Source: Sialis fuliginosa
Lineage: Eukaryota; Arthropoda; Insecta; Megaloptera; Sialidae
DNA: 64,000 nt
Reading direction: 5' to 3'
NCBI GenBank assembly: GCA_961205875.1
Contig: OY540821.1
Span: 12,028,001 to 12,092,000, forward strand
How positions within the stretch are numbered: the stretch's first letter is position 1; every line of letters starts with the position of its first letter. The position numbers and the translations under genes are program-made. This document shows, piece after piece, positions 1,193 through 49,419 of the stretch. The notes below the pieces were generated by a model. That model was not told the origin of the DNA, searched no databases, and saw only the letters and a list, made by a program, of their open reading frames with translations.

Positions 1193-2221
1193 AAATAGAT
1201 ATTATACACAAAAACTGTGAGTTTTTATATTTTGATTCATGTCAAATTACAAGGTCATTTATTTATTTCTAGATACAATGTCTTATTGTTAGACTTTTGT
1301 GTGTATATGTATTAAACTTGAGTTTTTGTTTGTATATACATATATGCAGGAAACTTTGTTAAATTATTTGTTTAGTTTAATTGTTCCTACCTACTAGAGA
1401 TACTCAAAATAAAAGTTCTGACAGCCCGAATCGATTTCTGATTGATTGTAGTAACCAAGCCTCACTCACAACCATATTTTCTGATTTTTTCAATCAATAT
1501 CATTAAATATACTTCATATACATATTATGTTCAATTTTTATTTTATTTTTGAATGCTTGTTAAAATTAATTTTTGAATAAATCGCGTTACCGCCAATTTG
1601 GTTAAAAATGGCGACGCAGTCATAATTCTTACACAAGTATCTGTACTACTTACCTAATTCTATTACAGATAAATAATTCCATCGTCGAAAAAATTCTCAT
1701 GGGTTTTTTCCTTGTTTTTTATTATGTTACCAAATTTTTTGCATCAAATAGAAATGAAAAATGATCTGTCATAATAAGACATAGCAAGATTGGTATAAAT
1801 ATAACAGACTATAGAATGATCTATTCATTAAGTGAAGTACAAGACAGATAATAATACCTTAAAAAATATTTTATAGTGTCGAGACTTAATAAAATAAAAA
1901 TATATTAATAATAAATACATAAAATTCAGTTAGAAATTACAAAATTTCTTAATCAATTCATTGAAAAGCATATATGGGAGTGCTATAAGATTACTAATAA
2001 TTTTTTTAACTACACAGAAAAAAATGTTTAAAAGATTAACATAATGCAAAACCAGTATTTGATGATTTCTTTAAATTTTAACTGCCTCGCAATTATGAAC
2101 ATGAAGGTTAATATTGTTAGTTGTATTAGATCTGTATAGATTTTAGTATTGATCAGAATTTATAAGAAGGTAGTGCTTTTCATTTTTTTAAAAACTGTGT
2201 ATTTACCTTTATCTTATAAAA
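1193..2221. other. Intergenic spacer between the two P450 genes
   Basis: AT-rich DNA with no coding signal. It must hold the promoter of the downstream P450, but no convincing TATA/initiator pair could be picked; TATAAG at 2161 is the only candidate and is weak. Confidence 0.5.
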
Positions 2222-3221
2222 ATGTGGGATTTAATATCATTTAAAAAACTAGAAATTACAACTTTATTGTGGATATTTGTATTTTTTGTGGCTGTTATAT
2301 TATCATTTACGTATTACTGGAGTAGAAGGAAATTATATCAAGTTGCAACATTGTTACCTGGTCCTCCAACACTTCCCATTATTGGAAATGTACATATGTA
2401 TATAGGAAAACCTGTTATAGGTAAGTAATACACTATACATTTTATATACAGGGAATTCGCGGGAACTGAGTGACCATTGCTTACTTTGAAGATTGGTTAA
2501 ATGGGCAAAGTATCAGTATTTTTTCCGGGATGAATAATGGCGGTCTCAAAAAAAAACAATTGAATGTCGAATTTCAGAGATATATTGAAATATAACTTTT
2601 TTTAATGGAATAATCTGTATCTATATTATTATTGAATTTTATAGCTAAGAATTTTCTCTTTATAAAAGTCTTATACATTATTATATTTTATTTTATACCA
2701 ATTTTACCACCATACATACCACGCAAAACATAAAGATAAAGCAAAAAAATACGTTTCTTTTTTTTAAAACGTCAAGGTGGTGTACCCCTTTACTTAATTT
2801 AATTAGATTTCTAAATTGTAATAAAAAAAATTCTTAATGATATTTTTTACTTTTTTTATTTTATCTTGTCTTGATTTGAGAATTTTACGAACCGAAGGAG
2901 CAAAGCGGTATTCGGCAAACACTTCGAACAAAAGGTCGTATTCGCCACGTTCGTTGTGCTCATCCTGTTCCCACAACTGTCTTAACTTTATAAGTGTGGT
3001 AATAGCTGCTATTTACTATTATATAAATTGATAAGAAATAAAAAATACAAGGAAACATTGGTAACGGATTTGCATAATTTTGTTTAAATTTATTATAATA
3101 TAATCCATTGAAGAGGGTATTTCCCATATTCATTTAATAAAATTAGACTATTTTCATGTCCCATTCCATTGCAAAATTTGTAACATAAAAGCAATCATTG
3201 TGGCTTGAATGTAAAACTTAA

Positions 3222-3550
3222 AAATATGGTATCGCGGACATTATTTAAGATCTTTTGATTTTACATAGTTCTTTACTACATTATATTGTTCAATATTAAA
3301 CAGTTTAGGCAGCGTATTGCAAAATAGCGTGCCGGCGGCAAACTTTTTCACGACTTGATTTACTATTATCGTCACTGCTTATTTCTTATGTTACCTAACG
3401 TTATAAAATATATCCTATAACCTGGCGAGAGAACATAATATCTTTGAATTAAAAAAATACACACGTAAATCGGATAAGTGGTTCTTGAATTATAAGCGCA
3501 CTAACGGACAAACAGACAGACAGATAGACGTTGAGCTTTATAAATATTTA
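3222..3550 (+). repeat. SINE-like retroposon copy 1 (GACAGACAG-tailed family)
   Basis: Lies in intron 1 of the disrupted P450. Shares with 9973, 18088 and 35031 the ordered blocks ATTATCGTCACTGCTTAT, ACAAAATATAT/CCTATAACCTGG, CAGAGAACATA, CGGATAAGTGGTTC, TTATAAGCGCACTAACGGAC and an AGACAGACAG / GTTGAGCTTTATA tail. The variable 5' starts with a common 3' end fit target-primed retrotransposition. No open frame; it could be a SINE or a 5'-truncated LINE 3' UTR. Confidence 0.65.
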
Positions 3551-5721
3551 TGATGAAATCTCAAGTGATAGCAGAAATCTTTATCTTAAATATACAAACA
3601 TTTTAAATCTCAAAAAATAATCATATTCAACGGAGCAGACATTTTAATAAAAAATAATAATTAAAATTCTAAGAATTTTTCTTCAAATTCGTCATACGCA
3701 AACACATATATGTAAACTCAAATTATATAAGTCATGTACGTATACACAGTAACAGAATTAAATATAGTTACGTAATTGTGTTAAATATTTTCCCTGTACG
3801 CTTTCCACGTCATAAAATTTAATATTTTAATTTTGATTGTTTTCAGAAATTTTAAATTCCGTCGACTATTATATAAAAGATTTATTCAAACAAAAACTAC
3901 CTATTAGGTTATGGTCAGGCCCGTTTTTAGTTATTTGTGCGACAAGACCTGAGGACTGTCAGATTATATTAAATTCCCCAGAAAGTTTTGAAAAATCATT
4001 GACGATGTATAATGTTATTAAAATCTTTATTGGTAATTGTATGCCCATGAAAACAGGTAATTATTAATTATAAGCCTTTTTTTTATTTAGAATTGAATGG
4101 TGTTTTTAGAATTTTTAAATCATTTTTCATTTTTGGGTCACAAGCCCTTAATTTATTTTTTCGGAAAAGTTATTTGGGATACCCGGTAAATGTATCAAAA
4201 ATCTAGACCTAATATTTATTAAAATACTGTCTATTTAAAATACCATCTATTTAAAAATGTATATATATATATATGGTTTGTTGCTATTTTGTCAAAAAAC
4301 ATCGTGTTGCTGTTTTGTCTCTTTGGTCTAAACATGGCATTAAAATCTACTGATTATTTTGTAGTATCTGACTGGAAACCAATGCGTAAAGCACTTACAC
4401 CTGCATTTACAAAATCGATGATCGAAAACAATGTACCAATGTTAAACAAATGCTGTAAAAAACTAATGGACGTAATGAAAAATAAAACAATTTGGGAGTA
4501 TCCTGATATGGATAAAGCAACCCTATCTGTTTGTACTGACTGTATTGTAGGTAAATCCTTGCAAAAAAATCATTACGTATTCATATAATTATATCAATTT
4601 TATTTTATGTTATAGCCTGCCAAACAAGATCAAATTTTATGAATTATGAAGAATATTATTGTTTCGGAAAAAAAATGAGAAGGTAATTTTTAGTGTTCCG
4701 TAACAAAATTATGTAACTGTCTGTCTGCTTGTTACAGATTTTTCTAGCTCAGATTTCGCATAAATATAGTAAATGGTGAACCAATTTAATTTATTTTTTA
4801 TTTTTTAGATGCAATAACATATGTTTTGATCGAACGGTAAAATTTTGGTTAATGAACGACTTTTTATTTAGTCTTACTAAAGACTATGAAGAGACACAGG
4901 AGATTATAAAGCATTGTGCGTATTATAAAAATAAGGTAATATAAGATGTTAAAATCTTTGTAAAAAATCTAAATTAATAATATTTTTAATTTTTAGTTAA
5001 TAGAAACGCGAAAACAAAAACTTCTTGAAGTGAAGCAAGAAGAAGAATCTAAATGTTTCCTTGACATTCTTTTAGAATTATCTGACGAAGGAAAAATAAC
5101 CGAAAAAGATATTTTTGATGATTTAAGTTTTATGTTTTCTGTAAGATATTCGTTTATAATCTAGGAAACTAATTGAATTAAAGCATTTTTACTATTATAG
5201 AGCGGAGATACAACAGGATCATGCGTTTACAACATATTAATACTCCTAGCAATCCACCAAGATGTGCAAACTAAACTCCATGATGAGCTAAATGGTATAT
5301 TTTGGGGATCAGATAGACCTATTGAAGCTGCAGATCTTCGGGAAATGGTTTATTTGGAAATGATTATAAAAGAAACGCTCAGGATTCTTTCTGAAGTAGT
5401 AGTGTTAGGAAGAACAACTACAGGCGATCTTAAACTTACAGAATGTACAATACCGTCAGGTAATAACAAATAGCTTTAATTTGTTTTATATTCCATTGAT
5501 ACTTAACTGTTTTTTTTTTATTAATTAACCTAATTAATAATTATTATGAGCCACATGATAAGTATTTTTATGTATTTCAGGTACATTAGTTATAATGAGT
5601 CCTTATTTGATGCATCGACATCCTGAATTTTGGCCTGAACCAAATAAATTTGATCCAGATCGTTTTTTACCAGAAAACTGTGAAAAAAGACATCCATATA
5701 GTTTTTTATCTTTTAGCGGCG

Positions 5722-7717
5722 CACAGTGGGTCTAAATCACACTTTTTTGCGCGAAATTTCGCTTCAAGCCAATTTTCAACCAATTTTAATAAAGTCAGTG
5801 GCATTTGAAAGGTAAATAGTTGTAGTTTCTGAAAATTACCCCAAGAATAGTCAATTCACCCTCTTAATTATTGTTTCATCCCCTTAAATCTGAAAATTCG
5901 ATTAAACGATAAATTCATAAATTAATAAATCGAATCAGATAATATATTCTGCACAAATATAAATATCTATTTGTTAGTACTATTATATAGTATGTGTAAA
6001 CATGTGTGAACATATTTTAATATATACAGGGTGAGTCATAAGTTCGTATTTCTTCGATATCTCCTCTGTTAATAATTAGAGAAAAATTTTAATTTTGAAT
6101 GATATTATAAGTAATAATACACATCTAAACTTATATTAAAATATATAGTGTGACCCCGAAAAAGGTTATCATTACAGGGTGAGTTGATAGTGCGTTTATC
6201 TTCGATATCTCCTCTCTTTTACAAGATACAGAAAAAATTCAAATATTAGATAATAATAAAAGTATAAATGTACATTATAAGAATGTATTGAAATATACAG
6301 TGTGGCCCCGAAATAAGGTGTATCACAAATATAATGTATTTTTAAATGGGATGACCCATTTATTTCTACCTTATGTAACTCTTGTTTAGAAGATCTATAC
6401 AGTGGTACAACATTTTTTAAAAACATTGAGGGGAAGGGGTATGATATAATTTGTTTTCTTAGTTGACGTTTTCAAACATTGTTTTGAAAAATCATTTTCG
6501 TTTTGGTGTGGCATTAGTTTAACCTAGACACCACTAGTAATCCATTAGAAATTTGTTTTATACAAGGTGCTCCTGAAAAAACTACAATTATTCAAAAATT
6601 ATATGCTACAAAACTATTTTTTAATGGAACAAAATATTTTTTTGTCATTAAGTATGTAATAGGTATTCGGTGCACTACAACTTTTCATGGCAGGTAAATC
6701 CTGCACCTAGTATATTTATTTATTTTAGGTGCAGGATTTACCTGCCATGAAAAGTTGTAGTGTACCGAATACCTATTACATACTTAATTAATGACAAAAA
6801 AATATTTTGTTCCATTAAAAAATAGTTTTGTAGCATATAATTTTTGAATAATTGTAGTTTTTTCAGGAGCACCTTGTATAAAACAAATTTCTAATGGATT
6901 ACTAGTGGTGTCTAGGTTAAACTAATGCCACACCAAAACGAAAATGATTTTTCAAAACAATGTTTGAAAACGTCAACTAAGAAAACAAATTATATCATAC
7001 CCCTTCCCCTCAATGTTTTTAAAAAATGTTGTACCACTGTATAGATCTTCTAAACAAGAGTTACATAAGGTAGAAATAAATGGGTCATCCCATTTAAAAA
7101 TACATTATATTTGTGATACACCTTATTTCGGGGCCACACTGTATATTTCAATACATTCTTATAATGTACATTTATACTTTTAGTATTATCTAATATTTGA
7201 ATTTTTTCTGTATCTTGTAAAAGAGAGGAGATATCGAAGATAAACGCACTATCAACTCACCCTGTAATGATAACCTTTTTCGGGGTCACACTATATATTT
7301 TAATATAAGTTTAGATGTGTATTATTACTTATAATATCATTCAAAATTAAAATTTTTCTCTAATTATTAACAGAGGAGATATCGAAGAAATACGAACTTA
7401 TGACTCACCCTGTATATATTAAAATATGTTCACACATGTTTACACATACTTTATAATAGTACTAACAAATAGATATTTATATTTGTGCAGAATATATTAT
7501 CTGATTCGATTTATTAATTTATGAATTTATCGTTTAATCGAATTTTCAGATTTAAGGGGATGAAACAATAATTAAGAGGGTGAATTGACTATTCTTGGGG
7601 TAATTTTCAGAAACTACAACTATTTACCTTTCAAATGCCACTGACTTTATTAAAATTGGTTGAAAATTGGCTTGAAGCGAAATTTCGCGCAAAAAAGTGT
7701 GATTTAGACCCACTGTG
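5722..7717. mobile_element. Transib-type palindromic (foldback) transposon inserted in P450 exon
   Basis: A 1,996-bp inverted repeat with two arms of about 989 bp joined by a short AT-rich centre near 6711-6728. The arms differ by only a few small indels and substitutions. The outer ends read CACAGTGGGTCTAAATCAC and its inverse. The flanking pentamer CGGCG is duplicated (5717-5721 and 7718-7722). CACA/GTG termini plus a 5-bp GC-rich duplication are the known hallmarks of Transib, whose transposase is related to RAG1 and whose ends resemble the RSS heptamer CACAGTG; such elements are known in moths (HzTransib). No transposase frame is present, so it is non-autonomous. Each arm holds two diverged direct units of about 148 bp starting ACAGGGTGAGT at 6026 and 6174, containing CTTCGATATCTCCTCT. 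A shorter frame (GCACAGTG ends with a GGC duplication) fits the same bases; the family call does not depend on it. Confidence 0.85.
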
Positions 7718-8178
7718 CGGCGGTCCCAGAAATTGTATTGGTGAGTAAAAAATTCACTTATTTATATTGAATTATTTTTAACTATTTATTTTTCTTTAGG
7801 TTACAAATTTGCTATTACTGTTGTTAAAACTGTAGTGGCGTTAATAATAAGAAAATATAGCCTCAAAACAGATGCAACAATGGAAGATATCGAACAAATA
7901 TCGGCGTTTGTTGGAAGATACAAATGTTCACGGCCAGTCACTATAGAAGAACGAGTGGCAAAATAAATGTGTTTAGTATAGAATATTCGAGTATTAACCC
8001 TAGGATGGTAGAGTGGGACCTCAAAAACCTCACATTTTGTTTTACCGATTTGATCTCCTATTTCGTCAAACTGATAAATTTCAACTAAAGAGGTTCTAGT
8101 ATTAGTTAGGAAGATGGTGGCAGAATTTTTTAAATGATTTGTACGTGCGGTAGAAGTTCAAATATGTGAAGATCTAAC

Positions 8179-10697: not shown

Positions 10698-11762
10698 CAG
10701 TGGCGAAGCGTCCATAGAAGCAGTGCTTCCCTTACTTTAAGGGTAAATTAATACAAATCTGTGTTTTCAGTTAATAAATAATTTAAAAATATTATTAGAA
10801 TATTCATCTTTATATGCAACTCAAGCATTTTAACCAAAAATAGTATTTAATATTAATTTACACGCTCAATTATAAAACTATAATACCTCTACGTCTTATT
10901 TTATGTGTTTTAGTCGATATTTGTATGACGAGTTGAAGTTCACTGCAGGAAACTTCACTAAAAATTTTTGAATTTTTGATTTCGTTAAAAGTATGTTTAC
11001 TGTATAGAAAATGACGTGAAAAGTTGAACTGTTCAAACCGCAGGTCTGTATCTCAAACCGTTCTCGAGATATAGCCTCTCAAAGTTTCAGTTTTTTCAAA
11101 ATTTTGAAGAAAAATGGCCCTAAATTTTGAACGCGTGGTCGGAATTGATTTTAGTTGACGGATTTGGAATCAGCGTGTCAAAATCTATATAATGGCATGT
11201 ATAATACCTTAAAACTCGAGAAAAAAATTTTCGCGAAAAATGTAAAAAAATGTCGATTTTTGACCAAAATTTTTTTGTCAGATTTTAAAGTATTATACAT
11301 GTCATTATATAGATTTTGACACGCTGATTCCAAATCCGTCAACTAAAATCAATTCCGACCACCCGTTCAAAAGTTAGAGCCATTTTTCTTTAAAATTTTG
11401 AAAAAACTGAAACTTTGAGAGGCTATATCTCGAGAACGGTTTGAGATACAGACCTGCGGTTTGAACAGTTCAACTTTTCACGTCATTTTATATACAATAA
11501 ACATACTTTTAACGAAATCAAAAATTCGAAATTTTTTAGTGATATTTCCTGCAGTGAACTTCAACTCGTCATATAAATATTGACTAAAATACAAGAAAAT
11601 AAGACGTAGAATCATTTAGTTACTATATAAATACATAAGAATTTATTTTAAAAAGTAAAAGCTTGAACTTAAGGTGTTTCATGGCTAGTTTTTTTTGTTA
11701 ATAGGAGGGGGAGGATTGACAAAATATGCTTCCCTTATTAAAAATTTCACGCCTCGCTACTG
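10698..11762. mobile_element. hAT-type element containing a long palindrome, copy 1
   Basis: The ends CAGTGGCGAAGCGT and (inverse) CAGTAGCGAGGCGT are flanked by a perfect 8-bp direct repeat ATATTTAG (10690-10697 and 11763-11770), which defines the element exactly at 1,065 bp. Eight-base duplications with CAG-type ends are the hAT signature. The interior holds inverted arms of about 330 bp (about 10895-11224 and 11282-11613) around a loop of about 55 bases; the arms contain CTGCAGGAAA, CTCGAGATATAGCC and GGAATCAGCGTGTC blocks. No transposase. Sequence outside the arms is not palindromic apart from the terminal repeats. Confidence 0.88.
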
Positions 11763-42058: not shown

Positions 42059-43016
42059 CAATGGCGAGGCGTGAAATTTTTAATAAGAGAAGCATAATTT
42101 GTCCAAATGTTTCATAAAAATAAATAAGTAAGAACTGTTTTAACAATGGATTTATCGAATCCTCCCCCTAATATTAACAAAAAAACTTGTTATAAAACAC
42201 TTTAAGTCCAAGCTTTTACTTATTTTTTTGTATTTTAGTCGATATTTGTATAACGAGTTGAAGTTCACTGCAGGAAATTTCACTAAAAAATTTCGAATTT
42301 TTGATTTCATTAAAAGTATGTTTATTGTATAGAAAATGACGTTAAAAGTTGAACTGTTCAAACCGCAGGTCTGTATCTCAAACCGTTCTCGAGATATAGC
42401 CTCTCGAAGTTTTAGTTTTTTCAAATTTTTGGAGAAAAAAGGCCATAACTTTTGAACTAATGGTCGGAATTAATTTTAGTTGACGGATTTGGAATCAGCG
42501 TGTCAAAATCTATATAATGACATGTATAATACCTTAAAACTCGAAAAAAAAAATTTCACGAAAAATCGACATTTTTTTAAGGTATACCCCTTTGAATTTT
42601 TTCGATTTTTCGCGATTTTTTTTTTTTCGAGTTTTAAGGTATTATACATGTCATTATATAGATTCTGACACGCTGATTCCAAATCCGTCAACTAAAATCA
42701 ATTCCGACCACGCGTTTAAAAGTTATGGCCTTTTTTCTTCAAAAATTTGAAAAAACTAAAACTTTGAGAGGCTATATCTCGAGAACGGTTTGAGATACAG
42801 ACCTGCGGTTTGAACAGTTCAACTTTTCACGTCATTATCTATACAATAAACATACTTTTAACGAAATCAAAAATTCAAAAAATTTTAGTGAAATTTCCTG
42901 CAGTGAACTTCGATTCGTCATACAAATATCGACTAAAATACAAGAAAATAAGACGTAGAGGTATTATAGTTTTATAATTGAACGTGTAAATTAATATTCA
43001 ATGTTATTTTTAATAT
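42059..43016. mobile_element. hAT-type palindromic element, copy 2 (right end lost)
   Basis: Inverted orientation relative to the 10698 copy. Left end CAATGGCGAGGCGTGAAATT matches that copy's right end. Arms of about 350 bp are centred near 42586, so near-identical open frames appear on both strands (42480-42668 plus, 42503-42691 minus). Similarity to copy 1 stops near 43016, before the other terminal repeat, so no target duplication can be shown. A 50-bp insertion relative to copy 1 lies near 42106-42158. Confidence 0.75.
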
Positions 43017-45057: not shown

Positions 45058-45610
45058 AATAGGCATGATGCCAGTAACAAAGTATCACTGAAATTATGAT
45101 TTTAAATAATGAAATAGGTTAAAAAGATTCTAAAAAATGTATTTATTTTTATATTAAAAGCGAAATTAATATGATTTTTGTTAAAATAAAAACACAAAAT
45201 ACAGCAATCCATCATGTTAGATAAAACACCAGTCAGAGTGGATGACGTCACGGCTAAGTAAACATAATTTTTGTTTCATTAATATCTGCACTGTTTATAA
45301 ATTATTTTGTGGTTTTAAATTATCAATTTGTTCAGTTTTGTGCACTGAGAAAAATATTTCGTGTAGCCAAAGAATATTTCTTTCAGTCAATTAAATAATT
45401 TCATCGAATAGCATCCATAAAATTATTTGATGAACTTAATGAAATAGTTTATTTAAAAGAAAGATTTAAGATAATTGATTTAAATAAGAAATTATTAATA
45501 CAATAAATAATTCATTACATCGAACAAAGTTTTCTTCAAATGGATATCAAATTTATAATTTCAATTAATAATTACATACAACTTATGAAACAAATAATTC
45601 GAATTATTTT

Positions 45611-46270
45611 TTCAATGAAATATTTTTTAAATCGAAAAAAATATTTTATGAAACTTAATATTTGTGTTATAACTTGTATGTCAAATTTCTTAAAAATTAT
45701 AAAATATTTGTTCAACTGCAATAAACAATTTATAAATCAAATAAGTCGGATTCTTTTTTCAATAAAATATTTTTTAAATAGAAAAAAATATTTTATGAAA
45801 CCTAATATTTGTGTTATAACTTGTATGTCAAATTTCTTAAAAATTATAAAATATTTGTTCAACTGCAATAAACAATTTATGAATCAAATAAGTCGGATTC
45901 TTTTTTCAATGAAATATTTTTTAAATGGAAAAAAATATTTTATGAAACTTAATATCTATGTTATAACTTGTATGTCAAATTTCTTAAAAATTATAAAATA
46001 TTTGTTTAACTGCAACAAACAATTTATGAATCAAATAAGTCAGATTTTTTCAATGAAATATTTTTTAAATGGAAAAAAATATTTTATGAAATTAAATATC
46101 TGTTATAACTTGTATGTAAAATTTCTTTAAAATTATAAAATATTTGTTCAACTGAAATAAACAACATATGAATCAAATGAATCGGATTATTTTTTCAATG
46201 AAATATTCTTTAAATTAAAAAAAATATTTTATGAAAATAAATAACTATGTATTAATTGTTCTGTCAAATT
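45611..46270 (+). repeat. 147-bp tandem repeat, about 4.5 copies
   Basis: The phrase TTCAATGAAATATTTTTTAAA recurs at 45611, 45758, 45905, 46049 and 46194, giving periods of 147, 147, 144 and 145. 147 is 49 codons, so a 196-codon frame (45540-46130) with repeating CVITCMSNFLKIIKYLFNCN runs through the first copies. It breaks where the period changes and is not a real protein. Confidence 0.85.
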
Positions 46271-46570
46271 TCATTAAAATTATAAAATAATTGTTTGATT
46301 TAAACTATTATATAATTCATTTATTGATTTAGTTCTTTCATTTCATAAAATGTTTAATGGCTCACATTATTCACATAATCTTCTCTAATAAACATTTCTT
46401 TATGAGGATTAAAGGAGTTATAGGATAAATATAGGGGTTCTTGAAAATTAAGAAGTATTTCTTTCAAATAAATAATACTTTATTGACATTAAAAATATAA
46501 TTTCTTTGGCTAAAGAGCATAGTTAATGCATTTCAAGAACTGGTTTATTTAATTTGAATAGATATATATA

Positions 46571-49419
46571 CTTGTTGCCCTAAAATTACTTGGCGCCCTA
46601 AAATTACTTGGTGCCGTAAAATTACTTGGTGCCCTAAAATTACTTGGTGCCGTAAAAGTACTTGGTGCCCTAAAATTACTTGGTGCCGTGAAATTACTTG
46701 GTGCCGTGAAATTACTTGGTGCCGTGAAATTACTTGGTGCCGTGAAATTACTTGGTGCCGTGAAATTACTTGGTGCCGTGAAATTACTTGGTGCCGTGAA
46801 ATTACTTGGTGCCGCGAAATTACTTGGTGCCGCGAAATTACTTGGTGCCGTGAAATTACTTGGTGCCGTGAAATTACTTGGTGCCGTGAAATTACTTGGT
46901 GCCGTGAAATTACTTGGTGCCGTGAAATTACTTGGTGCCGTGAAATTACTTGGTGCCGTGAAATTACTTGGTGCCGTAAAATTACTTGGTGCCGTGAAAT
47001 TACTTGGTGCCGTGAAATTACTTGGTGCCGTGAAATTACTTGGTGCCGTAAAATTACTTGGTGCCGTGAAATTACTTGGTGCCGTGAAATTACTTGGTAC
47101 CGTGAAATTACTTGGTGCCGTGAAATTACTTGGTGCCGTGAAATTACTTGGTGCCGTGAAATTACTTGGTGCCGTGAAATTACTTGGTGCCGTGAAATTA
47201 CTTGGTGCCGTGAAATTACTTGGTGCCGTGAAATTACTTGGTGCCGCGAAATTACTTGGTGCCGCGAAATTACTTGGTGCCGTGAAATTACTTGGTGCCG
47301 TGAAATTACTTGGTGCCGTGAAATTACTTCGTGCCGTGAAATTACTTCGTGCCGTGAAATTACTTGGTGCCGTGAAATTACTTGGTGCCGCGAAATTACT
47401 TGGTGCCGCGAAATTACTTGGTGCCGCGAAATTACTTGGTGCCGCGAAATTACTTGGTGCCGCGAAATTACTTGGTGCCGCGAAATTACTTGGTGCCGTG
47501 AAATTACTTGGTGCCGTGAAATTACTTGGTGCCGTGAAATTACTTGGTGCCGTGAAATTACTTGGTGCCGTGAAATTACTTGGTGCCGTGAAATTACTTG
47601 GTGCCGTGAAATTACTTGGTGCCGTAAAATTACTAGGTGCCGTGAAATTACTTGGTGCCGTGAAATTACTTGGTGCCGTGAAATTACTTGGTGCCGTGAA
47701 ATTACTAGGTGCCGTGAAATTACTTGGTGCCGTGAAATTACTAGGTGCCGTGAAATTACTTGGTGCCGTGAAATTACTTGGTGCCGTGAAATTACTTGGT
47801 GCCGTGAAATTACTTGGTGCCGTGAAATTACTTGGTGCCGTGAAATTACTTGGTGCCGTGAAATTACTTGGTGCCGCAAAATTACTTGGTGCCGCAAAAT
47901 TACTTGGTGCCGTGAAATTACTTGGTGCCGTAAAATTACTTGGTGCCGTGAAATTACTTGGTGCCGTGAAATTACTTGGTGCCGTGAAATTACTTGGTGC
48001 CGTGAAATTACTTGGTGCCGTGAAATTACTTGGTGCCGTGAAATTACTTGGTGCCGTGAAATTACTTGGTGCCGTGAAATTACTTGGTGCCGTGAAATTA
48101 CTTGGTGCCGTGAAATTACTTGGTGCCGTGAAATTACTTGGTGCCGTGAAATTACTTGGTGCCGTAAAATTAATAGGTGCCGTGAAATTACTTGGTGCCG
48201 TGAAATTACTTGGTGCCGTGAAATTACTTGGTGCCGTGAAATTACTTGGTGCCGTGAAATTACTAGGTGCCGTGAAATTACTTGGTGCCGTGAAATTACT
48301 TGGTGCCGTGAAATTACTTGGTGCCGTGAAATTACTTGGTGCCGTGAAATTACTTGGTGCCGCGAAATTACTTGGTGCCGCGAAATTACTTGGTGCCGCG
48401 AAATTACTTGGTGCCGCGAAATTACTTGGTGCCGTGAAATTACTTGGTGCCGTGAAATTACTTGGTGCCGTGAAATTACTTGGTGCCGTGAAATTACTTG
48501 GTGCCGTGAAATTACTTGGTGCCGTGAAATTACTTGGTGCCGTGAAATTACTTGGTGCCGTGAAATTACTTGGTGCCGTAAAATTACTAGGTGCCGTGAA
48601 ATTACTTGGTGCCGTGAAATTACTTGGTGCCGTGAAATTACTTGGTGCCGTGAAATTACTTGGTGCCGTGAAATTACTTGGTGCCGTGAAATTACTTGGT
48701 GCCGTGAAATTACTAGGTGCCGTGAAATTACTTGGTGCCGTGAAATTACTTGGTGCCGTGAAATTACTTGGTGCCGTGAAATTACTTGGTGCCGTGAAAT
48801 TACTAGGTGCCGTGAAATTACTTGGTGCCGTGAAATTACTTGGTGCCGTGAAATTACTTGGTGCCGTGAAATTACTTGGTGCCGTGAAATTACTTGGTGC
48901 CGTGAAATTACTTGGTGCCGTGAAATTACTTGGTGCCGTGAAATTACTTGGTGCCGTGAAATTACTAGGTGCCGTGAAATTACTTGGTGCCGTGAAATTA
49001 CTTGGTGCCGTGAAATTACTTGGTGCCGTGAAATTACTTGGTGCCGTGAAATAACTTGGTGCCGTAAAATTACTTGGTGCCGTAAAATTACTTGGTGCCG
49101 TGAAATTACTTGGTGCCGTGAAATTACTAGGTGCCGTGAAATTACTTGGTGCCGTGAAATTACTTGGTGCCGTGAAATTACTTGGTGCCGTGAAATTATT
49201 TGGTGCCCTAAAATTACTTGGTGCCCTAAAATTACTTGGTGCCGTAAAATTACTAGGTGCCGTAAAATTACTTGGTGCCCTAAAATTACTTGGTGCCGTA
49301 AAATTACTAGGTGCCGTTAAATTACTTGGTGCCGTAAAATTACTTGGTGCCGTAAAATTACTTGGTGCCGTAAAATTACTTGGTGCCCTAAAATTACTTG
49401 GTGCCCTAAAATTACTTGG
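46571..49419. repeat. 18-bp minisatellite, about 158 copies
   Basis: Consensus GGTGCCGTGAAATTACTT. The array is 2,849 bp. Variants are ordered: edge units read GCCCTAAAA or GCCGTAAAA, while the core is dominated by GCCGTGAAA with blocks of GCCGCGAAA and scattered CTAGG for CTTGG. Because 18 is a multiple of 3, open frames of 788 codons (plus, KLLGAV repeat) and 450 codons (minus, ISRHQV repeat) arise automatically; a single TTA-to-TAA change near 49052 ends the plus one. No host-like start context, splice signals or flanking coding sequence. Confidence 0.95.

Follow-up and report, generated by a model that had tools for sequence, protein, structure and literature searches.

What does a transposable element do to a cytochrome P450 gene when it lies inside the exon encoding the heme loop, and what kind of element is it? 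We analysed a 64-kb window (C13:12028001-12092000; the whole stretch of DNA under study) together with the 392-Mb, 20-contig genome that contains it. The P450 gene, probably that of an insect, occupies 2222-7966 on the forward strand and consists of nine exons separated by eight GT-AG introns of consistent phase. Exon 1 (2222-2420, with the ATG at 2222) is followed by exons 2 (3847-4056), 3 (4365-4550), 4 (4616-4682), 5 (4809-4935), 6 (4997-5140) and 7 (5201-5459, SGDTTG to the ETLR region). Exon 8 is present in two parts, 5581-5721, ending with FSG plus one base of the Gly codon that follows, and 7723-7740, carrying the heme Cys ligand, and exon 9 (7800-7966) ends in the stop codon at 7964-7966. 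Joined without the element, the exons read as 505 codons with a single stop at the end. The claim of an earlier note on this DNA, that nine error-free exons encode a 505-residue P450, is borne out, and a check for other inactivating changes in these exons found none, the frame being open to the final stop.

The broken gene probably belongs to the CYP4 clan. The 444 residues encoded ahead of the insertion match the P450 profile PF00067 at 7.6e-60, and with the same query CYP4B1 is the only solved structure found at 1e-30 or better (best 4.6e-31). This supports placement in the CYP4 clan but allows no finer one, and the match is silent on substrate, so that the detoxification role suggested in the earlier note is at most putative. 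An intact tandem paralogue lies upstream on the same strand. The end of its exon 8 (FSNGPRNCIG) is at 1-30 and its exon 9 at 901-1070, the remaining exons are found in locus L054, and its nine-exon organization is that of the broken gene. The two proteins are identical at 325 of 505 aligned residues. A dN of 0.235 against a dS of 1.63, the latter near saturation overall and saturated in the first half, indicates constraint on the evolution of the pair. For exon 7 of the broken gene, the assembly contains one 100% match, and the upstream neighbour matches at 74%, so that there is no second haplotype to compare; the polymorphism suggested in the earlier note is at most a possibility.

The element interrupts the heme loop within a codon. 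It spans 5722-7717 (1,996 bp), has the ends CACAGTGGGTCTAAATCACAC with CACAGTG at both, and is flanked by two copies of a CGGCG target site duplication at 5717-5721 and 7718-7722, in keeping with the clean Transib-type insertion into the heme-loop exon described previously. With the duplication counted once, exon 8 is cut at 5721/5722, one base into the codon for the second Gly of FSGGPRNCIG. The coordinates, length and duplication given in the earlier note are therefore correct, while its placement of the break between two codons is not, as the break lies within the motif's fourth codon. The frame that enters the element reads FSG-A-Q-W-V-stop, with the stop at 5733-5735, upstream of the heme cysteine codon. 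The most plausible course of events is insertion into exon 8 at the target CGGCG, with duplication of five bases, leaving an allele in which four changed codons and a stop precede the heme cysteine and from which no working P450 would be made. The element very likely inactivates this P450 copy, and knockout of an otherwise intact gene is still the best reading. Judged from the DNA, we hold with high confidence that a Transib-type insertion in exon 8 of a CYP4-clan P450 has left an allele yielding no functional enzyme.

Removal of the element by splicing is improbable. We built a splice-site profile from the 16 introns of the broken gene and its neighbour, on which real introns score well by construction, and scored donor-acceptor pairs spanning the middle of the element, excluding joins from the real donor of exon 7 and pairs within one half. 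The palindrome holds splice-like donors and acceptors with scores of at least 5, as would be needed if the element were spliced out or bypassed and the P450 were still functional. However, only 14 of the 2,747 scored pairs read into GPRNC, the best with a summed score of 10.1 compared with 15.0-23.5 for the 16 real introns, and none of the 2,747 restores FSGGPRNC. Skipping of exon 8, which measures 159 bases without the element, would preserve the frame but delete the cysteine loop. We thus give a functional, spliced gene product only a slim chance and retain inactivation as the preferred reading.

The element is a near-perfect palindrome belonging to a family dispersed throughout the genome. 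Its two halves are reverse complements of each other with 988 of 1,002 alignment columns identical and 8 of the remaining columns gaps, a feature absent from the earlier note. The central 261 bases fold at -189.6 kcal/mol, versus a mean of -42.0 for shuffled sequences. Long near-perfect inverted repeats are one class of long-read artefact, and the element resembles that class, which raises the question of whether it is a palindromic chimera produced during library preparation or assembly. Allowing up to two mismatches, the 30-bp element end occurs 171 times genome-wide (81 forward and 90 reverse, including the two in the window), whereas a reversed control pattern has no match anywhere in the genome, so that the element is not a chance pattern. 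We compared 21 copies possessing both ends, namely the window copy, L002, L003 and L035-L052, the last group picked by hand as the longest loci with both ends exact, after five further loci with one end missing were dropped. The two 5-bp flanks of a copy are identical to each other in 20 of the 21 copies, with L045 differing at one base, and the duplication is exactly CGNCG in 11 of 21. Both the occurrence of the same ends at unrelated places and the exact duplication of 5 bp at a target resembling that of Transib argue against a chimera, which we regard as extremely improbable. A second palindromic family of about 0.7 kb is also present in the window, at 10899-11603 and 42219-42952, its arms being 93% complementary and separated by 6-14 bases.

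The ends and target site of the element point to the Transib superfamily. Transib termini have the heptamer consensus CACWRTG, with which the CACAGTG at both ends of the window element agrees. The GC-rich 5-bp duplication, with its preference for CGNCG, likewise agrees with the Transib target listed in a table of PMC5704228. The duplication printed for Hztransib, GCTCG (PMC1852546), indicates that CGNCG is a preference and not a rule. Within 5722-7717 no ORF reaches 120 aa, and hence no RAG1-like transposase of that length is encoded, so the element can only be a non-autonomous derivative.

An intact Transib family is present in the same genome. When the genome was searched in six frames with the RAG1 profile PF12940, 35 matches were obtained, all weak and below the cut-off, of which 33 fall on one region of a repeated ORF. 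One complete copy of this ORF (753 residues) passes the cut-off at 37.2 versus 25 bits, and its alignment to HzTransib (6pqn) covers 475 residues at 3.2e-120. Twelve loci (L063-L074) carry this Transib, the other eleven being 99.5-100% identical to L063 across some 2.8 kb. Both ends were read for L063 and L072, which have CACAGTG termini, one flanked by CGACG and the other by CGACT. The family looks very young, and transposition in this genome looks recent. Full-length matches to the Transib core at 99% identity or more number 31, of which 19 lack an internal stop. Other full-length Transib-like matches are 40-46% identical to the first, and further Transib families are represented at, for example, C12:4815133, C14:4899668 and C1:1194217. 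The 3.1-kb stretch around a second such family contains no CACWRTG, the ends of that family lying outside the stretch.

The relation between the window element and this Transib is confined to the extreme termini, where the first eight bases are common to both and the sequences beyond them differ. Among the exact ends listed, which cover C1 to part of C13, no pair encloses a Transib match; C14-C20 and mismatched ends fell outside this comparison. A Transib family with CACAGTGGGTCTAAAT ends would identify the cognate transposase. The seven longest copies (L035-L041, 3.2-6.5 kb), each judged by its longest ORFs (at most four per copy, minimum 90 aa), were considered as candidates for an autonomous parent and rejected, having no Transib match among the matches listed. 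On inspection by eye, a Copia-type retrotransposon was recognised in L036 and a Tc1-type transposase in L039. In L037, the ORFs at 1868-3797 have no Pfam match above the cut-off and apparently form part of a nested element.

Could the element instead represent another superfamily that also produces 5-bp duplications? The element itself lacks a coding part, no transposase with its ends was found, and L037 contains ORFs of another kind, one of them with 122 matches in the genome. These ORFs, however, occupy a segment that, judged by eye, is bounded by separate inverted ends and sits nested inside the element, and the CACAGTG heptamer and CGNCG-like target are common to the element and a true Transib of the same genome. 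Membership of a different superfamily thus appears quite unlikely. Because heptamer and target type are shared with the resident Transib, the window element is most likely a non-autonomous Transib, and it would have been mobilised by a Transib transposase acting in trans.

The insertion is probably young but need not be very recent. The arm alignment comprised 19 of the 53 arms collected. Each window arm has one private substitution, and three more changes are common to both window arms and missing from the 17 others. Depending on which changes are counted, between 2 and 8 are assigned to the window arms over some 1,980 bases (0.1-0.4%). At the mutation rate of butterflies, 2.9e-9 per generation, this would correspond to roughly 0.35 to 1.4 million generations, although this rate may not suit the host. 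The data are equally compatible with an age near zero, since an unsampled source copy may already have carried the changes. As to a possible homogenisation of the two arms within a copy, the comparison points both ways. The arms of the window copy differ from each other at 3 sites and from any other arm displayed at 8 or more; the two arms of L002 are 18 apart. Between the window arms and the eight arms closest to them, 8-13 of about 988 positions differ, which leaves room for an insertion that is not very recent. The recent insertion proposed in the earlier note is consistent with the single private substitution per arm and with the intact P450 frame, which agrees with a low age, while the distance to the nearest arms means that a very recent date is not required.

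Transposons at insect P450 genes, one of them a Transib, have been published (PMC1852546), and gene loss of this kind is ordinary. Hztransib of Helicoverpa zea measures 3,518 bp, has a deduced protein of 489 aa and lies in the promoter region of CYP6B8 (PMC1852546). It is similar to the window element in being Transib-like, with long terminal inverted repeats and a 5-bp duplication, and in residing at a P450 locus (CYP6B8, xenobiotic). In contrast, the window element is 1,996 bp long, lacks a transposase and has inserted at CGGCG in a heme-loop exon. The same source places HzTc1 in exon 1 of CYP6B8 and HzSINE1 in an exon of CYP321A2, likewise transposable elements in P450 exons, but of other classes and in other P450 genes (PMC1852546). 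Insertions at insect P450 genes are also the subject of PMC10926513, which itself cautions that the link between transposable elements and P450s lacks functional proof. The present locus offers a clean and roughly datable P450 loss by transposition beside an intact tandem copy, and filled and empty alleles could be sought in populations.

Very long inverted arms are characteristic of Galileo and Tetris, and in this respect both resemble the window element. Tetris is called a foldback element in the title of its report, and Galileo belongs to the P superfamily according to its abstract, unlike the Transib-type window element (PMC4168063, PMC4079207). In the papers listed among the literature matches on palindromic and foldback elements, the word Transib does not occur, a weak hint that such an element may be previously undescribed. 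It is conceivable, though doubtful, that the family represents a foldback Transib, a palindrome of about 2 kb keeping little of its parent beyond the ends, whose roughly 1-kb hairpin transcript could feed small-RNA silencing. If so, transcription of the element within the gene would yield a hairpin of about 1 kb and possibly small-RNA silencing of the whole family. The idea that, in a genome rich in AT, the CGNCG target directs the element towards GC-rich motifs of coding sequence is only weakly borne out: three CGNCG sites occur in 1.5 kb of pre-insertion coding sequence and 54 in the 64-kb window, with none in the coding sequence of the neighbour. With three sites before insertion, the heme loop fails as the sole CGNCG of the P450 coding sequence.

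Several further features of the genome and window were recorded. The chorion family PF01723 and the lipoprotein family PF03260, which we take to be lepidopteran, have no match in the genome, and control genomes were likewise silent; a moth origin of the animal is doubtful, though this is only suggestive. The TTAGG telomere repeat is present, the matches listed, all on contig C1, including a run close to the end of that contig, and this repeat fits many insect orders. An 18-bp minisatellite at 46569-49419 (158 copies, 97% matches) produces long open frames in both orientations, and these probably do not represent genes. A 147-bp tandem repeat at 45578-46296, present in about 5 copies, overlaps a 207-aa open frame.
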